The notes under the pieces: generated by a model | Database searches by the model: none | Told to the model about the DNA's origin: nothing | The model's input: the letters and a program-made list of their open reading frames with translations, nothing else | Assembly: GCF_009389715.1 (NCBI RefSeq) | Contig: NW_024067786.1 | Location: 124,001 to 188,000 of the forward strand | DNA: 64,000 nt | From: Phoenix dactylifera | Lineage: Eukaryota > Streptophyta > Magnoliopsida > Arecales > Arecaceae | Reading direction: 5' to 3' | Part shown: piece after piece, positions 29,115 to 37,974 of the stretch | Position numbering within the stretch: the first letter of the stretch is position 1 | Layout of the letters: every line of letters starts with the position of its first letter | Program-made: the position numbers and the translations under genes

Positions 29115-32100
29115 TCATATGGGATCATCAAATATCGTGGACAACACAAGCTCCCGCACAAAGTGACTCCTCCGAGCTCTCTCCACTTGATCTTTCTCGG
29201 ATAGAGATGGCTCAACACTGGCAGAGGGCAAACAAAGATTTAGGCAAATAAAGTAAAACTTTCTTCTACAAGTAAATTGGGTAACAAGAAGAGTGGAAAG
29301 AAAAGCCTTTTTTGCCAGGGTCTAAGCAAATAATTCAACAGTGGATAATCCAAGTTTGAACATTTCCTAAACTCTCATTCGGCACTATAATGCAAGCAAG
29401 ATTTCCCATTTTCCAAGTGTTTAGCAGCTTGAAAGGTAAAATGCTAAATGCACATTAAAAAATGTCTTGACCTCTTGCAAAATCTTAAGTGCTGAGCAAT
29501 GGGTCTTGCTGGTTTTGGTAACGGGAACAAGGTTTCTTTTCCCCGCTCTTGATAATGTGTGTGTGTGGTAGATTAGATACATAGGCAATTTTGGCTACAA
29601 ATTAAGCAGCAGCACTCTCCCAAGTACTCCTAAGCTCCTCAACTTTGAGAAAGGTTGTATATGATCCCAGGTCTTATTAGTTTAATCTTTCATAGGATTT
29701 TATTACATCTGCACATTCTGACCAAGCAAGGTCTTTGTCAAGGTTCAATTGCCGACCACCTTTTGTCCCACAAATCCAGTTGTGAATTTGTGATATGTGG
29801 ATGACTCACTTATATTTATATTTAATGACTATGACACATGACTTAGAGGATTTGGTTTCTACCAAATCCTTATCATTCTACTTTGATTGGGGAACTGGGC
29901 TAAAATTGAATAACCACAAAAGTGAATTTAACTGAAATCAGAGCGGAGTAGCACTGGAGACAGAATGAGGGAATAACAGAGAACAGGGCTGTTCAATATA
30001 ATACTCGTCTTGCTACAAGTGAGAGTTAAAACAAACATACTTGTAACCTAGATTTTAAAAACCATCAGCATGGGGAGGTATGAATGTTACGGTACCATTC
30101 TGGCAAAAAACCAGCATTGGTACCCAGCACTGTACCTGTTTTTCAGAAAACTGGTACAGACTCCGTTACCAGCTTTTAAAACCATCTGTTGCACTTTGTT
30201 GCCTAGGAAAGATGGGGAGACAACTTGCCTGATCCTGTGAAGGCCATTTTCACTTGCATTCTGTTATCATGTGTAGATGTTTAGGGCATAATAAAAGGCA
30301 TTAGCATGTTGAATTGAGTCTGAATTGAGCCTATTGATAAAGAAGACAGCTCGCTATTGGTGGGTTTCAGGAGCTGATCAAGGTGTTCTAAAAGCATTAA
30401 CAGAGACAGAATAATCAAAAACATCAGTGAGAAATACTAGAATGAGATATTCTACAGGGCCTGGGATGATTGGGCTCCTACAGGTAATTCTAGTGGATCT
30501 GCAGTGGTGAGATATGCTTAGGAATGTGAAACAATTTTCTTAAGGGGAAGATGAAAATGGGTAAACAAGATGATGATTTCCTATACTGCATCATATAGGT
30601 TATGTTGGACACAGAACACCAAAAGGATTGAATAATTAGAAATTAACAATCAAAAAGCCTCTTCATGTTTAAACATTGGTGTCCAAATAAATATGGAAAA
30701 ATCCATTGTACAGGAACACGAGGATTCTACACTGCATGGAACACTATTCGGCTTCTAATTGACAATTGACTACACCCATAAGAAATAGTATGCTTTGTTG
30801 TAAGTTCACATTGGAAGTTCTGGTCCCATTGCCAAGAGAAAGCTGTAGTACTCCTATAAACTGCAAATAAAGTGCAGACTAAGCAAAAGGAGGCCTAAAA
30901 TTCACCCTCTAATTGTTTTTAATACAACCATGACTTGACAGGGGGCAAAAGGAGTGCTTGCTTTTCTTAAAAAAAATTGATCAGCTCAAGATGGAAAGCA
31001 ATAAAAAATGCTCTTTTTCTTTCTATTTTCACCACCTGTTTGTGTAGTAGGGGGACTGAGGGAAAAAGATGTCTACTTGCTAGAGGACATTAATTTTGTT
31101 TTACTGCTATTCTCTTGGTCTATAAAAGTGAGCTTACCTTTTCTCTATCAAACCTTCTTAAATTTCACAACTATAACAAAGATACTACACCTGACTCCAT
31201 ATCCAGTCCCTTAAGAAAGGTTTCTCCAAATGAGAATGACACAGCTGGTAAAACAACAAATTCGCTAGCATCATTATGAGATAAACATTCACATTCGCAA
31301 TACATCCAGCTAAAGACAAATTACTCACAAGAAGCACTTTCTGCTGGTTTCTCTTATCTATTTACCATGCATGCTTCTTGCCCTAGTAATTGAAGAGCCC
31401 AAAACAAGTGCTGTAGTTCATTCATCACTAACTGAGACCTGACAATAGTAACAATCCTAGTTCAATAGCATAAAATTCCATGTGAGTCCATCAAATGCAG
31501 AAGCTACTAGAAAAACTACACCAACACCCACATCTCATTCCTCTATATCTTCCCTGAAATATAAGCTTGCAATTATGACTGGCTGCTTCAAAATCAGAAA
31601 AGAGGAGAGGTAAAGAGAGAGAGAAAGAGGGGGGGGGGGGTGTGGGCCATCTGCTTAGCTTTTTCAAAGAAAAAAGGTAAATGATCAGCCTTAGATTTCA
31701 CTCTTTTTTCCCATCCTCCTTTTGCTTTCTTACTTCATGGACAAATCAGTGACAGATCTGAACCCCAGATCTGTTCCGTAGCTCCACATAACCAGACCAA
31801 GAGACATCTCATTTTATCGCTATTTAGATAGAATCTTCATACAGTAACTAGACCTTCAAATTATAGATCCCTATCATTACCTTCATCATACTTCTTTTTC
31901 ATCTTACTTCATATAATCACATCTAACAGCAGGTCTTTTACCTGCTTTTTTGGGACACGTTTTACCTGTGGAAGCCTGTCTTATGCATTGCCCTCGATAC
32001 CTGAGTCTGTCAAGTCACTGATGTCCTTTTACCCCTAAAGCCTGAAGGACCAAGAAATCTCCTCTCCATCCCCTGTTATTTAATCCAATTTATATCAAAC

Positions 32101-35100
32101 CTGCCGCAAAAAAGTAGGATAACAATCTGTTTCTTATAATCCATGTATTCCTAACACTGGGGCTACATCCGTTTCTTCATGAGATATTCCTGAACTCCAA
32201 ATGGATAATCCAAAATCGGAGAACTATTTTGTAATAAATAGTTTCACTTTGTTTAGCAATACCTTTGGATTCCGAAATGAAAGGCAAGCAGATGATCCAT
32301 CCAACTAAGTCTAGTTTACTTATTCCACTTCCTCATAAAGTACAGGTGTCTCCTCTTCACAGCATAAACAAGGTCGGTCCAAATATCACAAAAACCAAAT
32401 TATCCAACTCTACTGACACTAGTCTCCAATATGTATAAGGATAATTTTCTCCGTCTATTTTCTCTGTCTTTGGAAAAAAGCATGTGCCTGTGCACTCTGA
32501 ATCCTGATTTGAACTTTCTCTCACTTTAGTTTTACTTTAGCATTGAGTCTACCCAAGAAGCTCTACCCACCGAGAGATGGAAGTTAGCCATGGAACAGAC
32601 TGACCATGTTCATTAAACAATCAGGTAACAAAATAAAAGTTCGTTTAGTCACCAAAGAACATGCAGATATATGGGGTGGACTATTTTGAATCCTTTCTGT
32701 ACTGTTGCAAAATTGAACAGCACATAAGTTAGTTGTTAAGTGACTTAAGGGTAGGACTGTAAATGGGGCCAGAATCAGGTCGGATCCATAGCGTATCTGC
32801 ATCCAAACTTGATATGAAAAATTGAACTAGGATTTGGATTTTGGATCCATAAAAATAAGTAAACTTGAACTCACACCAAAAACTGATTAATAATCATATT
32901 CAAGTTATTTTTCTTTAGGTTCAATTCAGCACATGATTTCAGCAGGAAAACAAGCCAAGAGATAGCAATTCCCAAAACTGAAAGGACTCTTATCATAATA
33001 GCCCTCCATATAGCGAGATGCTGGCAAATTGCAGTGGAAAAGGAGCATGATATGACAAGTGAATGATTGGTTTTCCCAAAAAAAATCTAAATACTTCATA
33101 AACATATTTAAATTTCCATTTATATTCAATTTGTGAAACATCAAAACCTAAGTGTCAGCTGGGATTTTGGAACTGAAACGGCAGTGAGCGAGAGTAAGGA
33201 GAGCATGCATGAGAAAAAAAGCACAAATCCAAACATGGAAAAGGGGAGTTACGTGTTTGTGTGTGTGTAGTATGTGTATATATATTCAGGTTGTCGTATT
33301 TTCATATAGCTACGTCCAAGTTAGATCCAATAAAGAATCAGATCATCTATATAAACTCCATCTTCGATGGTCATCAACAACTTAAATTGGATCCTATAAA
33401 ATAGTCAGGTCGTGCAATTGAGTTTTTATATATCATTTACGTCTCTACTTAAGGGTAGCAATGACAACCATTCCCATGATGTTGCACAATGATTTACATG
33501 AAGTTTACATGGAGCAAATACAAGCATTTGTTAGTTAAAAAGAATCAGATAAAAACAAGAAGAATAAGAATTTTCAATTTGAAGCAGGATTTTCAGGCTT
33601 TATTTGAAAAATATCAGCAAAACAATTATGGTTTTCAAGTTAAGGAAGAACCAGAATTTGTGACTCCTAAAATATTTTCCTCGAAGAACATGCACAATAA
33701 AACTATGATGATAGGATCAAAATACAGAATCTGTAATGCAACTGGAAGATCTGATAAATGATCTCATGGCACACCTAGGTGGAAAATTTATAAGCTTATC
33801 TAGTAGCAGGTTGGACATAATATTTGCTGTAAGCCTGAGTAGCCAAAGGAGCCCAACAAGAGAAGTCGTCTAATAACTAGATAACTTTAACAATCCACTG
33901 ATTAGGCTAGATCACAATCCCCAAAAGGACTACCATAAAATCTTCTCGAGGAAGTCAGAATCCAGATCCAGTACAGAGAATCAATACAGAATAATGGCTC
34001 AAAGAAATCTCGAAATTATACAGCTGAACCCAAATGTAAGAGATAACATTTTCTTCTCAGCAACCTGATGAAGATGTAATATGAAAATTAGTATGCAAAT
34101 ACATTACAAGCAACCTTATGTTCTGCACGTGAAAATGAAATCCCTTAACTCATTCCTCCCCCCCCCCCCCCCCAAAAAAAAAAAAAAAAGAAAAAAAAAA
34201 CTGCGTGCTGGAGGTTCTTATCCTTCAATTCTTTTTCCTCCTTGGTTTATCTTCCTTATTACTTCATATTTGTTTCATCTATCAAAGCCCTCAAACTAAG
34301 TACAAATTTAAGGGCTGTAGGCATCTTCGATCAAATCGAGATTGGTGGACCAGACCTTAAGTATGACAACTTACAAAGTTCTCTACACAATACCATTAAA
34401 AATTAAAAGGAGATGTCACAGGCACAGTGAATGGATGCAAAATACAGAGGCACAGACAATGCAACTAGACAATTATATAATGACTGCTCCTTACTTGGAT
34501 AAAATACCTCATTACCAGAATAAAACATTTACAAACCAAAAAAACATTTTCCACCTTCAACTAATAAAAAAATTCCACATAGAAATGACAATTACGTGAG
34601 GACTTCACATTCAGAAAAATGTCTGACAAGTTCATATTAAATTCACTAGAAAGAATACAAACCATAGAACTAGATAATAACAACAGACTTACTAATTACG
34701 GGAAGTAATCAGAACTGACTGCACCAGAACAAGAGAGAATAATTAATTTATTTGACAGCAAGGTATGATTAGAAACTCTAACAGCATTGGTACAAACGAA
34801 GTTAAACATGTATCTGCACTATTAGAATCTAAAGCCACTTGTAAATAAGAAGTTATATTTTATCCTCTTATATACCAAATTTATATCATGCCATGTCCTT
34901 ATACAAACAAATGACTCATCAGAAACAGTAGAAACTAGAAAGTAATTCTAAACCATTTTTCTAATCATGTTACAAAAATCACAACGTTTTTAAAGTAATT
35001 ATGTGGAACTCAGGGAAGTTTCAAAGGATTACAACCAACCCTCATTCAATTATTGGAGAAGCAGTGGGAATTATCAAAACAGTGAGGAAAAAGAGCATGT

Positions 35101-37974
35101 AATTGAGAGGAAATGCCAAAGCTTCATACCTTTCCCCTGCTTTCTCCTCTGAAGTCTTGTTAATCAAATTTCCATCATCCAAGGATTCAGGCTTTACATC
35201 TTTTGATGAATCAGCAACAGGAAAATTCAGAATGAATGATGAAAGCAATGGATCAGGCGCAGCATTCAAGGGAGCAACTGTAAAGGAAGACCCCCCAAAA
35301 AGAGATTGCAAATTCCCCCCTCGAAGATCCTTTCTCAACAAAGAGAGTGTAGAATGGGATCCTGATGAACCTTTACGGAATCTCCTCCTACGCTGCATGT
35401 TAGCTATTATTAAGGAACTCAAACCATATTACTCTATCAAACAGGACATTTGCACAAAACGAACATAGTAAAGATAGCTTGACTTAACAGTTCAGTTTGT
35501 AAAGCAGGGTTTAGAGAATAATAAGAAATTACAGTGCCACTAGATACAAAACAAAAAAGAAAAGGGAGAAACATATATAACACTCCACAATCAAAGTAAA
35601 GAAAGGATATCTTGAAGAAATTCGCATGCTGCACAGTTATGTGCCCAACCATGTCCATCCCAACCCTAGCTGCACAAACAGGACATACCTGAAAGAAGAA
35701 ACAACATCCAATGCTAACAACAATAAAGTCCGCTACACATCCAAGAATTAAAAACATAAACAGACAGCAATACCATGATTGGCTAAGATTGTTATATGTG
35801 GGTTCAAAGATCCTAGCCTTTTTAACAAATCATAAACAAAGAAAGGATAAGAGTAAAAAAGATTTCTTCCAATCCCTACCAACACATAGGAAAGCAAAAT
35901 AAACAAAATAACCTGAAAAAGTCATACTCTGATTAAAAGTACAACCAAATTAAAACAAAAGCAACTTTTAAAACATGGCTAACTTATATTAAAAGGTACC
36001 AGAATTTTACTTCTATTTCTGGGTTGTAAGATACATTAAAATTTGATGACTCCATACCTGAAAATTGAAACACTAAAGAGTACAGGTATATATCAAATAT
36101 ATATGGCCTTTAATGCACAACAAGCAATATCTGACTTGATGCACACTAAAGAAGGTGATGAAGACTTTGTGGCTTCAAAATTTGTAGGTCGACTCATATA
36201 ATAAAATACAATAGATCGATTAAACTTGCTTAAACTAACAGAACTGTGCCTTTTTTTTTTTTTTTCATATAACAACATTGGAGTATAGATACCCAATGAT
36301 CTCAGACATATAATTCCAAGTTTTTCAGATTTACTGTGAAGGACCTAAACCAACCCAAAATGCTTAACAGGAGCCAGAACAAAAAAAAAAACAGTTTTGG
36401 CAACACCAACATCTACTTTACTGCATTAGCATTGAAAACTGGAATGAAGCACATGCTATGCACGTCAGAAAGCACAGTAGGTTGTGTCTGTAAATCATAA
36501 ATCAAAATAGAAGATAAAAACGTCATTTTTGCTGCCTTATTCACTTCCTAATATATCTCTTCATTACAACCATCCCCCACTTTCCAGGTGCATGGCACAT
36601 GATGGATATGGTCGAAAGTCCCTTTGCATTGTCCAACATATGTCCAATGATTGTTTCTGTAATATATCAGTAAGATCTAAAAGCAAAGATGCAAATCTAA
36701 AGGCCAAAAGGAAATATAGTATTTCAATGACTAACAAGAGAAATTTACTCTTTTTTTTATAGAATTTTGAAAAATGATTCGTGTAGTAGTTTTTTATCCA
36801 ACCATGGTTCACTAAATGCAAACATTTTTTAACTTAGAAAAGCAATCTATAAAATCCATTTCAGTTTACAGTTTAAGATTGGACCACCCTGCTTATCCAG
36901 CAAACTCTTAAAGCAGCATGGACATGGTAGACCATCAGTAACAGCATCCCAGTCCATGCTTGCTTGTCTGTACACTTCATGGCAGCTGTCAAAGAGGTGG
37001 AAAAAGACAACAAAAATTACCATATATGCCTACTCAATTTCTAACGAAGCAAGCAAGCAAGAACCACTATTGACACGATGTTATACAAGACTAACCTTGA
37101 ATCCCTAATTTACCTAAAAGCTCACTATAAGCTCATGTCATAATCAAGGGGAAATATCAGAATCCATTCATAATGATTGCATACATAATTGCTTTCCAAA
37201 AAGAGCTTCGGCAGACAATGCATTCATACAGGAAATCCTAAATAATCAATTTGTCATATACGAGTGATAGAAAATTAGAACCATTCACAACTGAGCAAGG
37301 AGCTATATGACAAAATTTTTAGCATCATTGGAGAATGAGTACAGAAAATAACAAAAATCTAGCTACAGATAAATGAAAACAAGAGCTTCAGAATCAGACA
37401 ACAGAAAAACCTTATAAAAACCTAGCACGTAATAAATATCACTTCCAAAAACTTAAAAATCCATTTTTTCCCCTTAACTACCGTTCATTCCATCAAGAAG
37501 ATGTTTCAAAATCCAACTTTTCCCAGCAAGACCCCATAAAAATCCAATTTTGATCAAATATTTACACAAAAATCCCCCCAAAAAAAACTCTTTCCCCCTC
37601 AACATGTGAAAACAAAAGCAGCTCTGGTGCATCTTCGAATCTCAAAAGGACCAGAAAGGAGACAATACCCCATTTTTAGCCTCAACCGAGTGCTCGTCGT
37701 CGATGTGGCAGCACAGCCCCACTATATCAAAATCCTCGGAGCAGAATGGACACGGGAACTCCGCTCTCGAGTCCTCTTCCCCTCCATCGATCTCCTCATA
37801 CCCAAGGTACAGATCTACCAGCCAAAACACCCAATCAAACCCCACTCTCACAAAAGGAAACCAAAACTCAGATAATCCACAACCAGATACTCAATCCTCA
37901 CCGAATCGAGGCTGAACAGCGGACTGGTGGCGTTTCGAGGCGGCAGAGAAGCGGCTCCATGAATCGGCCTCCAT
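29115..37974 (-). CDS. DI19: Di19 (drought-induced 19) zinc-finger protein
   Basis: Five exons on the minus strand: 37974-37902, 37814-37669, 35688-35611, 35398-35130 and 29217-29115. They total 669 nt and 222 aa, the usual Di19 length. The start reads MEADSWSRFSAASKRHQSA, typical of the family. Two Cys2-His2-like fingers lie at about 44-99 (PCPFC with HIDDEH, then CPVC with HITVQH). A basic patch QRRRRFRK (101-108) is a likely nuclear signal. The Di19 C-terminal domain carries STLSLLRKDLRGGNLQSL and ends LVLSTIFDDPI. Known Di19 proteins are nuclear, respond to drought, salt and ABA, and can act as transcription factors; this role is by family only. Intron 3 is AT-AC (separate entry). Intron 4 is 5.9 kb and holds a hAT MITE and other repeats. 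G-box hexamers lie upstream, at 38393, 38986 and 39252. Confidence 0.94.
30040..30200. repeat. GGTACC-rich dispersed repeat in Di19 intron 4
   Basis: A cluster of ACGGTACCATT, TTGGTACCCAGC, CTGTACCTG and CTGGTACAG lies between two copies of a TTTTAAAA(A)CCATC word. The word GGGGAGGTATG also occurs at about 57283 in the MADS gene intron, suggesting related copies. Its class is unknown. Confidence 0.4.
32752..33447. mobile_element. hAT-type MITE in Di19 intron 4
   Basis: The flanks carry a perfect 8-bp direct repeat, CTTAAGGG, at 32744-32751 and 33448-33455, as expected for hAT insertion. The left end is TAGGACTGTAAATGGGGCC, and the right end read backwards is TAGAGACGTAAATGATAT. The element is 696 bp with no transposase. 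Its TIR resembles that of the element at 39547-40309. Confidence 0.85.
33735..33870 (+). mobile_element. decayed Ty1/Copia fragment
   Basis: A short plus-strand reading contains a phrase like FISLSSSRLDIIFAVSLSSQ. It resembles the region between reverse transcriptase and RNase H of plant Copia elements (LIYLSNTRPDIAFAV-type). No LTRs were found. It is an old, broken fossil lying in Di19 intron 4, close to the hAT MITE. Confidence 0.4.
35399..35610 (-). other. AT-AC (U12-type) intron of the Di19 gene
   Basis: On the minus strand the exon ends AATTTCTTCAAG and the intron opens ATATCCTTTC. It closes TTCCTTAATAATAGCTAAC, with TTCCTTAAT matching the U12 branch consensus TTCCTTRAY and its branch A about 11 nt from the last base. 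The next exon starts ATGCAGCG. The join reads NFFKMQRRRR, as expected of Di19 proteins. Intron length is 212 nt. Confidence 0.92.

Follow-up and report, generated by a model that had tools for sequence, protein, structure and literature searches.

The presence of an intron with AT and AC ends between the zinc fingers and the basic patch of a Di19 gene raises the question of whether it belongs to the U12 type, which machinery removes it, and whether its removal could be regulated. The gene lies on the minus strand of the window, i.e., the whole stretch of 64,000 nt of the Phoenix dactylifera genome that was analysed, and all the features described below are on that strand. We built its exon model from sequence homology and splice signals. 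The model predicts a complete reading frame of five coding exons, which join into 222 amino acids and finish with a stop codon, and Pfam identifies in this product the domains zf-Di19 (PF05605, 1.4e-25) and Di19_C (PF14571, 1.3e-33). The coding part of exon 1 (37902–37974) precedes an 87-nt GT-AG intron, and exon 2, with the first zinc finger (37669–37814), precedes a GT-AG intron of 1980 nt. Exon 3 (35611–35688) encodes the second zinc finger (VCPVC...HANFFK). Exon 4 (35130–35398) opens with MQRRRRFRK; it carries the basic patch MQRRRRFRKGSSGSHS and the larger part of Di19_C, whose end is found in exon 5 together with the stop (29115–29217), after a 5912-nt GT-AG intron. This fourth intron (29218–35129, 5.9 kb) far exceeds the others in length. 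An upstream protein segment starting with MDWDAV was rejected: it was taken from intron 2, and the true first-finger exon is 37814–37669. Four introns, the usual five-exon structure, are reported for 31 of 36 Di19 genes (PMC8954995), and the gene of the window matches this structure when coding exons are counted. Some barley Di19 genes are described with just one or two introns, pointing to intron loss in some lineages (PMC12109150).

Intron 3 (35399–35610) is 212 nt long, is in phase 0, starts with ATATCCTTTCTT, and finishes with GAGTTCCTTAATAATAGCTAAC. U12-type introns have either AT-AC or GT-AG termini, a 5′ splice site with the consensus RTATCCTTT, and a branch site close to TTCCTTRAY about 10–13 nt from the 3′ end. 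The termini of intron 3 are AT-AC and its donor ATATCCTTTC (35601–35610) fits this consensus. The nonamer TTCCTTAAT (35409–35417) fits that of the branch site, and its two As, at distances of 12 and 11 nt from the final base of the intron, lie within the expected range. The 3′ splice site is the AC at 35399–35400, and exon 4 begins with ATGCAG, with an AG 6 nt downstream. The donor forms duplexes with the U11 (−6.2 kcal/mol) and with a stretch of the U6atac (−9.4 kcal/mol) of this genome, and TTCCTTAAT pairs with the GTAAGGA stretch of its U12 gene; these pairings are descriptive and were made without shuffled controls. The coordinates, donor, branch nonamer, and AC end given in the sequence-only reading thus proved exact to the base. 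Its placement of the intron between the second-finger exon (...HANFFK) and the exon with the basic patch resembling a nuclear localisation signal (NLS) is seen in the gene model as well. The NLS-like label gains backing, by analogy only, from cotton Di19, in which the two zinc fingers are described as adjoining a conserved region that holds an NLS and CDPK sites (PMC4734338). AT-AC termini make up 13–26% of the U12 introns of the four plants listed in Table 2 of PMC7367187, and phase 0 is given as the less usual one for minor introns, with an average of 22% (PMC10639083). Intron 3 of Di19 shares its termini with plant AT-AC U12 introns generally, but has the rarer phase.

Short motifs of this kind may occur by chance. 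The donor motif ATATCCTT alone has 8 matches in the window where shuffled sequences average 4.26 (8 or more in 8 of 100 shuffles), and TTCCTTAAT alone has 1 match where 1.81 are expected. Hence, the single motifs are unremarkable, being neither rarer nor commoner than chance allows. We then defined a joint pattern on both strands: ATATCCTTT, followed 60–700 nt downstream by TTCCTTRAY and 5–14 nt later by an ending AC. It occurs once in the window and has a mean of 0.005 in 200 dinucleotide shuffles (1 of the 200 with a match), a figure that is indicative because we chose the pattern with the finding already known. That every Di19 locus examined has identical ends placed at one and the same codon boundary is stronger evidence than this estimate.

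To obtain these loci, we searched the 773-Mb genome from which the window comes, at the DNA and protein levels. Matches to Di19 were found on at least 10 contigs, and those 10 were examined. They correspond to 8 distinct copies and two near-identical contigs (C1635, close to C139, which is the window, and C1783, close to C3), each taken to be the same copy represented on a second contig. The copies form two groups, defined by eye and checked against exon-3 identity: C139, C29, C120, and C3 in one, and C11, C9, C8, and C4 in the other. Exon-3 identity is 397/468 and 388/468 within the groups and 719/1248 between them. All 10 loci have ATATCC at +1 to +6, an AC end, and the same codon boundary, at which a K or R codon is followed by (M/L)Q; exon 3 of C120 ends with AGG instead of AAG. 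For the sequence-only reading, orthologues lacking the intron would have counted against it; within this genome, its position is constant in all 10 loci. The donor is ATATCCTT in nine loci and ATATCCTA in C29, and the intron length varies between 112 and 218 nt. More variation is seen in the branch nonamer: five loci have the full TTCCTTAAY, four (C120, C11, C9, and C8) are one base off, and C4 is two bases off. This last copy (L026, G000:C4:10796734-10799964), whose exon 3 contains an in-frame stop, is probably a pseudogene. Despite this stop, it keeps ATATCC...AC. Six bases beyond the AC, an AG (35398–35393 in the window) is present in C139, C1635, C29, and all four second-group copies. It could allow an in-frame alternative omitting two residues (MQ or LQ). 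Overall, the signals, their spacing, and the identical ends in 10/10 loci point to a real and conserved intron that almost certainly belongs to the U12 class, in line with the assignment made in the sequence-only reading.

The comparison of the two groups provides information on how these signals were maintained. It consists of 16 pairs drawn from 8 copies, and the pairs are not independent. The first eight positions of the intron are identical between groups in 124 of 128 cells, against 27 of 63 for four-fold sites in exon 3. The intron interiors have an identity of 0.81 over aligned columns between groups, against 0.79 when one partner is shuffled. Within groups they are slightly above the shuffles (0.81 versus 0.77 and 0.80 versus 0.72). 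The splice signals were held while the intron interior lost its resemblance across groups.

The genome also encodes components of the machinery that these signals imply. A genome with U12-type introns is expected to contain genes for U11, U12, U4atac, and U6atac. An Rfam search identified one U12 (94.6 bits), one U11 (78.7 bits), and six U6atac loci (two with 95–97 bits and four with 35–59), all over the cut-off, and none of 14 control genomes matched any of the three models. We take the USE-like box to be a plant snRNA promoter element. It lies 64–78 nt upstream of the U12, the U11, and the two best U6atac loci, and is absent upstream of two weaker U6atac loci (L032 and L033). The Rfam search returned no U4atac at an E-value of 0.001. 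At E-values up to 10 it gave two candidates (32.4 and 31.9 bits, for a cut-off of 53), and 11 of the 14 control genomes also matched at this level. The candidates (L035 on C3 and L036 on C156) are near-identical and have a USE-like box at −80, and the Rfam model may fit the gene of this plant poorly. The energies of their duplexes with U6atac (−54.7 and −55.1 kcal/mol) do not discriminate, since 100 shuffles have a mean of −42.0 and a minimum of −56.3. The Pfam domain Ubiquitin_4, presumably that of SNRNP25 (U11/U12-25K), is present in the genome over the cut-off.

The same boundary might be processed by the major spliceosome, either at nearby GT-AG or GC-AG sites or at the AT-AC ends themselves. 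We tested rival pairs with donors from −72 to +39 and acceptors from −40 to +59 around the U12-type sites, at equal offsets. Candidate pairs that are in frame and free of stops are plentiful near the boundary (32 in the window copy and 16 to 33 across seven copies), and there is an AG 6 nt past the AC end. However, not one of the pairs tested is common to the seven copies with open exons, and the GT-AG objection named in the sequence-only reading, as far as genomic sequence can address it, did not refute the intron. The pairs shared within groups begin 34–65 nt inside exon 3, and their use would cost residues of the second finger. In C4, there is no such pair at all because of its exon-3 stop. 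The AG at +6 reads CAA in C120, C3, and C1783, and therefore only the AC serves all loci. We regard splicing at GT-AG or GC-AG sites as highly improbable. Removal of the AT-AC intron by the major spliceosome has a precedent, since such introns are described in sodium-channel genes (PMC2831892). Those have a G at +5, whereas in all 10 Di19 loci this position is a C within ATATCC, and intron 3 has the U12 branch nonamer. This makes such a route, if anything, even less credible than the use of nearby sites.

A different question is whether minor splicing of this intron acts as a regulated brake, with a share of the Di19 transcripts normally keeping the intron and stress shifting that share, as the sequence-only reading had suggested. 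Retention yields a premature stop: the frame gains 57 codons and closes at a TGA (35437–35439), giving 156 amino acids that keep zf-Di19 with both fingers and lose the basic patch and Di19_C. The position of the intron, parting the zinc fingers from the NLS-like region (as in the cotton protein, PMC4734338), would suit such a switch. Published data leave some room for it: Di19 is listed among the alternatively spliced genes conserved across cereals (PMC4578763), and At-Di19-5 among those affected by alternative splicing coupled to decay (PMC3591102), in both cases in text that does not name the U12 intron. DI19 is also named among genes with skipping of small exons, which is an event other than the U12 intron (PMC10808074). 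On the other hand, we looked for a conserved product of the retained intron across the 10 Di19 loci and did not find it. The extension varies from 7 to 57 codons (57 in the window and C1635, and, for the remaining eight loci, 23, 7, 12, 7, 20, 23, 13, and 30), and the intron interiors are unconserved between groups, so that neither a conserved isoform nor a regulatory stretch within the intron is visible. In the largely open-access literature that we covered, we found no paper from 2017 onwards on the retention of plant U12 introns in drought, and, among the papers listed for Di19 with a U12 intron or intron retention, none that deals with stress regulation of intron 3. We consider the regulated brake unlikely, although clearly less so than either route through the major spliceosome; stress regulation of Di19 via this intron is possible but unsupported.

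The explanation that we favour is that intron 3 is an ordinary U12-type intron, constitutively removed, older than the split into the two Di19 groups, and with its signals under selection. We hold it to be likely, and not more than that, because the word constitutive excludes regulated removal, to which we leave a minor share. Constitutive rather than regulated removal is assumed here as the default. Two observations weigh against this explanation: the U4atac candidates score below the cut-off, and the branch nonamer deviates from TTCCTTAAY in 5 of the 10 loci. In minor splicing, the donor is recognised by U11 and then by U6atac. In Di19, U11 and then U6atac would recognise ATATCCTTT, U12 would pair with TTCCTTAAT, and the minor spliceosome would join ...FFK to MQRRRR..., so that the NLS-like region and Di19_C follow the zinc fingers in one frame. 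When removal fails, the premature stop would lie 307 nt upstream of the last exon junction (exon 4/5), and the message would presumably be degraded or translated into a fragment without the basic patch. We infer from the genomic signals that intron 3 is spliced in this species. A U12 intron in the Di19 family is already known from Arabidopsis: Di19-2 is reported to have one (PMC3422263, PMC4892727, PMC5853960), and its splicing to be defective in u11-48k plants (PMC4892727). The two genes belong to the same family and their introns to the same class, but they are from different species, the u11-48k dependence is reported for the Arabidopsis gene only, and the likeness is at the level of the class.

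The best parallel to intron 3 of Di19 is the U12 intron of CBP20. All CBP20 genes studied are described as having an AT-AC U12 intron that separates the RNA-binding core from the tail containing the NLS (PMC5932401). In this genome, CBP20 (L047, G000:C9:16433400-16436000) has ATATCCTTTG ... TTTCCTTAACAAAGTATAC before the tail-coding exon, so that the intron is at its published place and serves as a positive control. In both genes, an AT-AC U12 intron (intron 4 in CBP20, intron 3 in Di19) lies between the part that binds nucleic acids and the tail that bears the NLS or, in Di19, the NLS-like patch. The genes are nevertheless different, and the CBP20 intron has about 2.1 kb and is in phase 1 (length and phase worked out by hand), whereas that of Di19 has 212 nt and is in phase 0. 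The parallel suggests a broader reading, in which the plant minor spliceosome gates the nuclear entry of some nucleic-acid-binding proteins, among them Di19 and CBP20. We consider this very doubtful; if it were true, incomplete minor splicing would specifically lower the nuclear form of these proteins, and Di19 output under stress would depend on the activity of the minor spliceosome.

The identification of intron 3 fixes the Di19 gene model. Predictors that expect GT-AG introns can miss or mis-annotate AT-AC ones. If its removal were regulated, minor splicing would be linked to the drought response. All the Di19 copies found here have kept, at the same codon boundary, an intron of the minor-spliceosome type, so the expression of each copy is expected to rely on that machinery.
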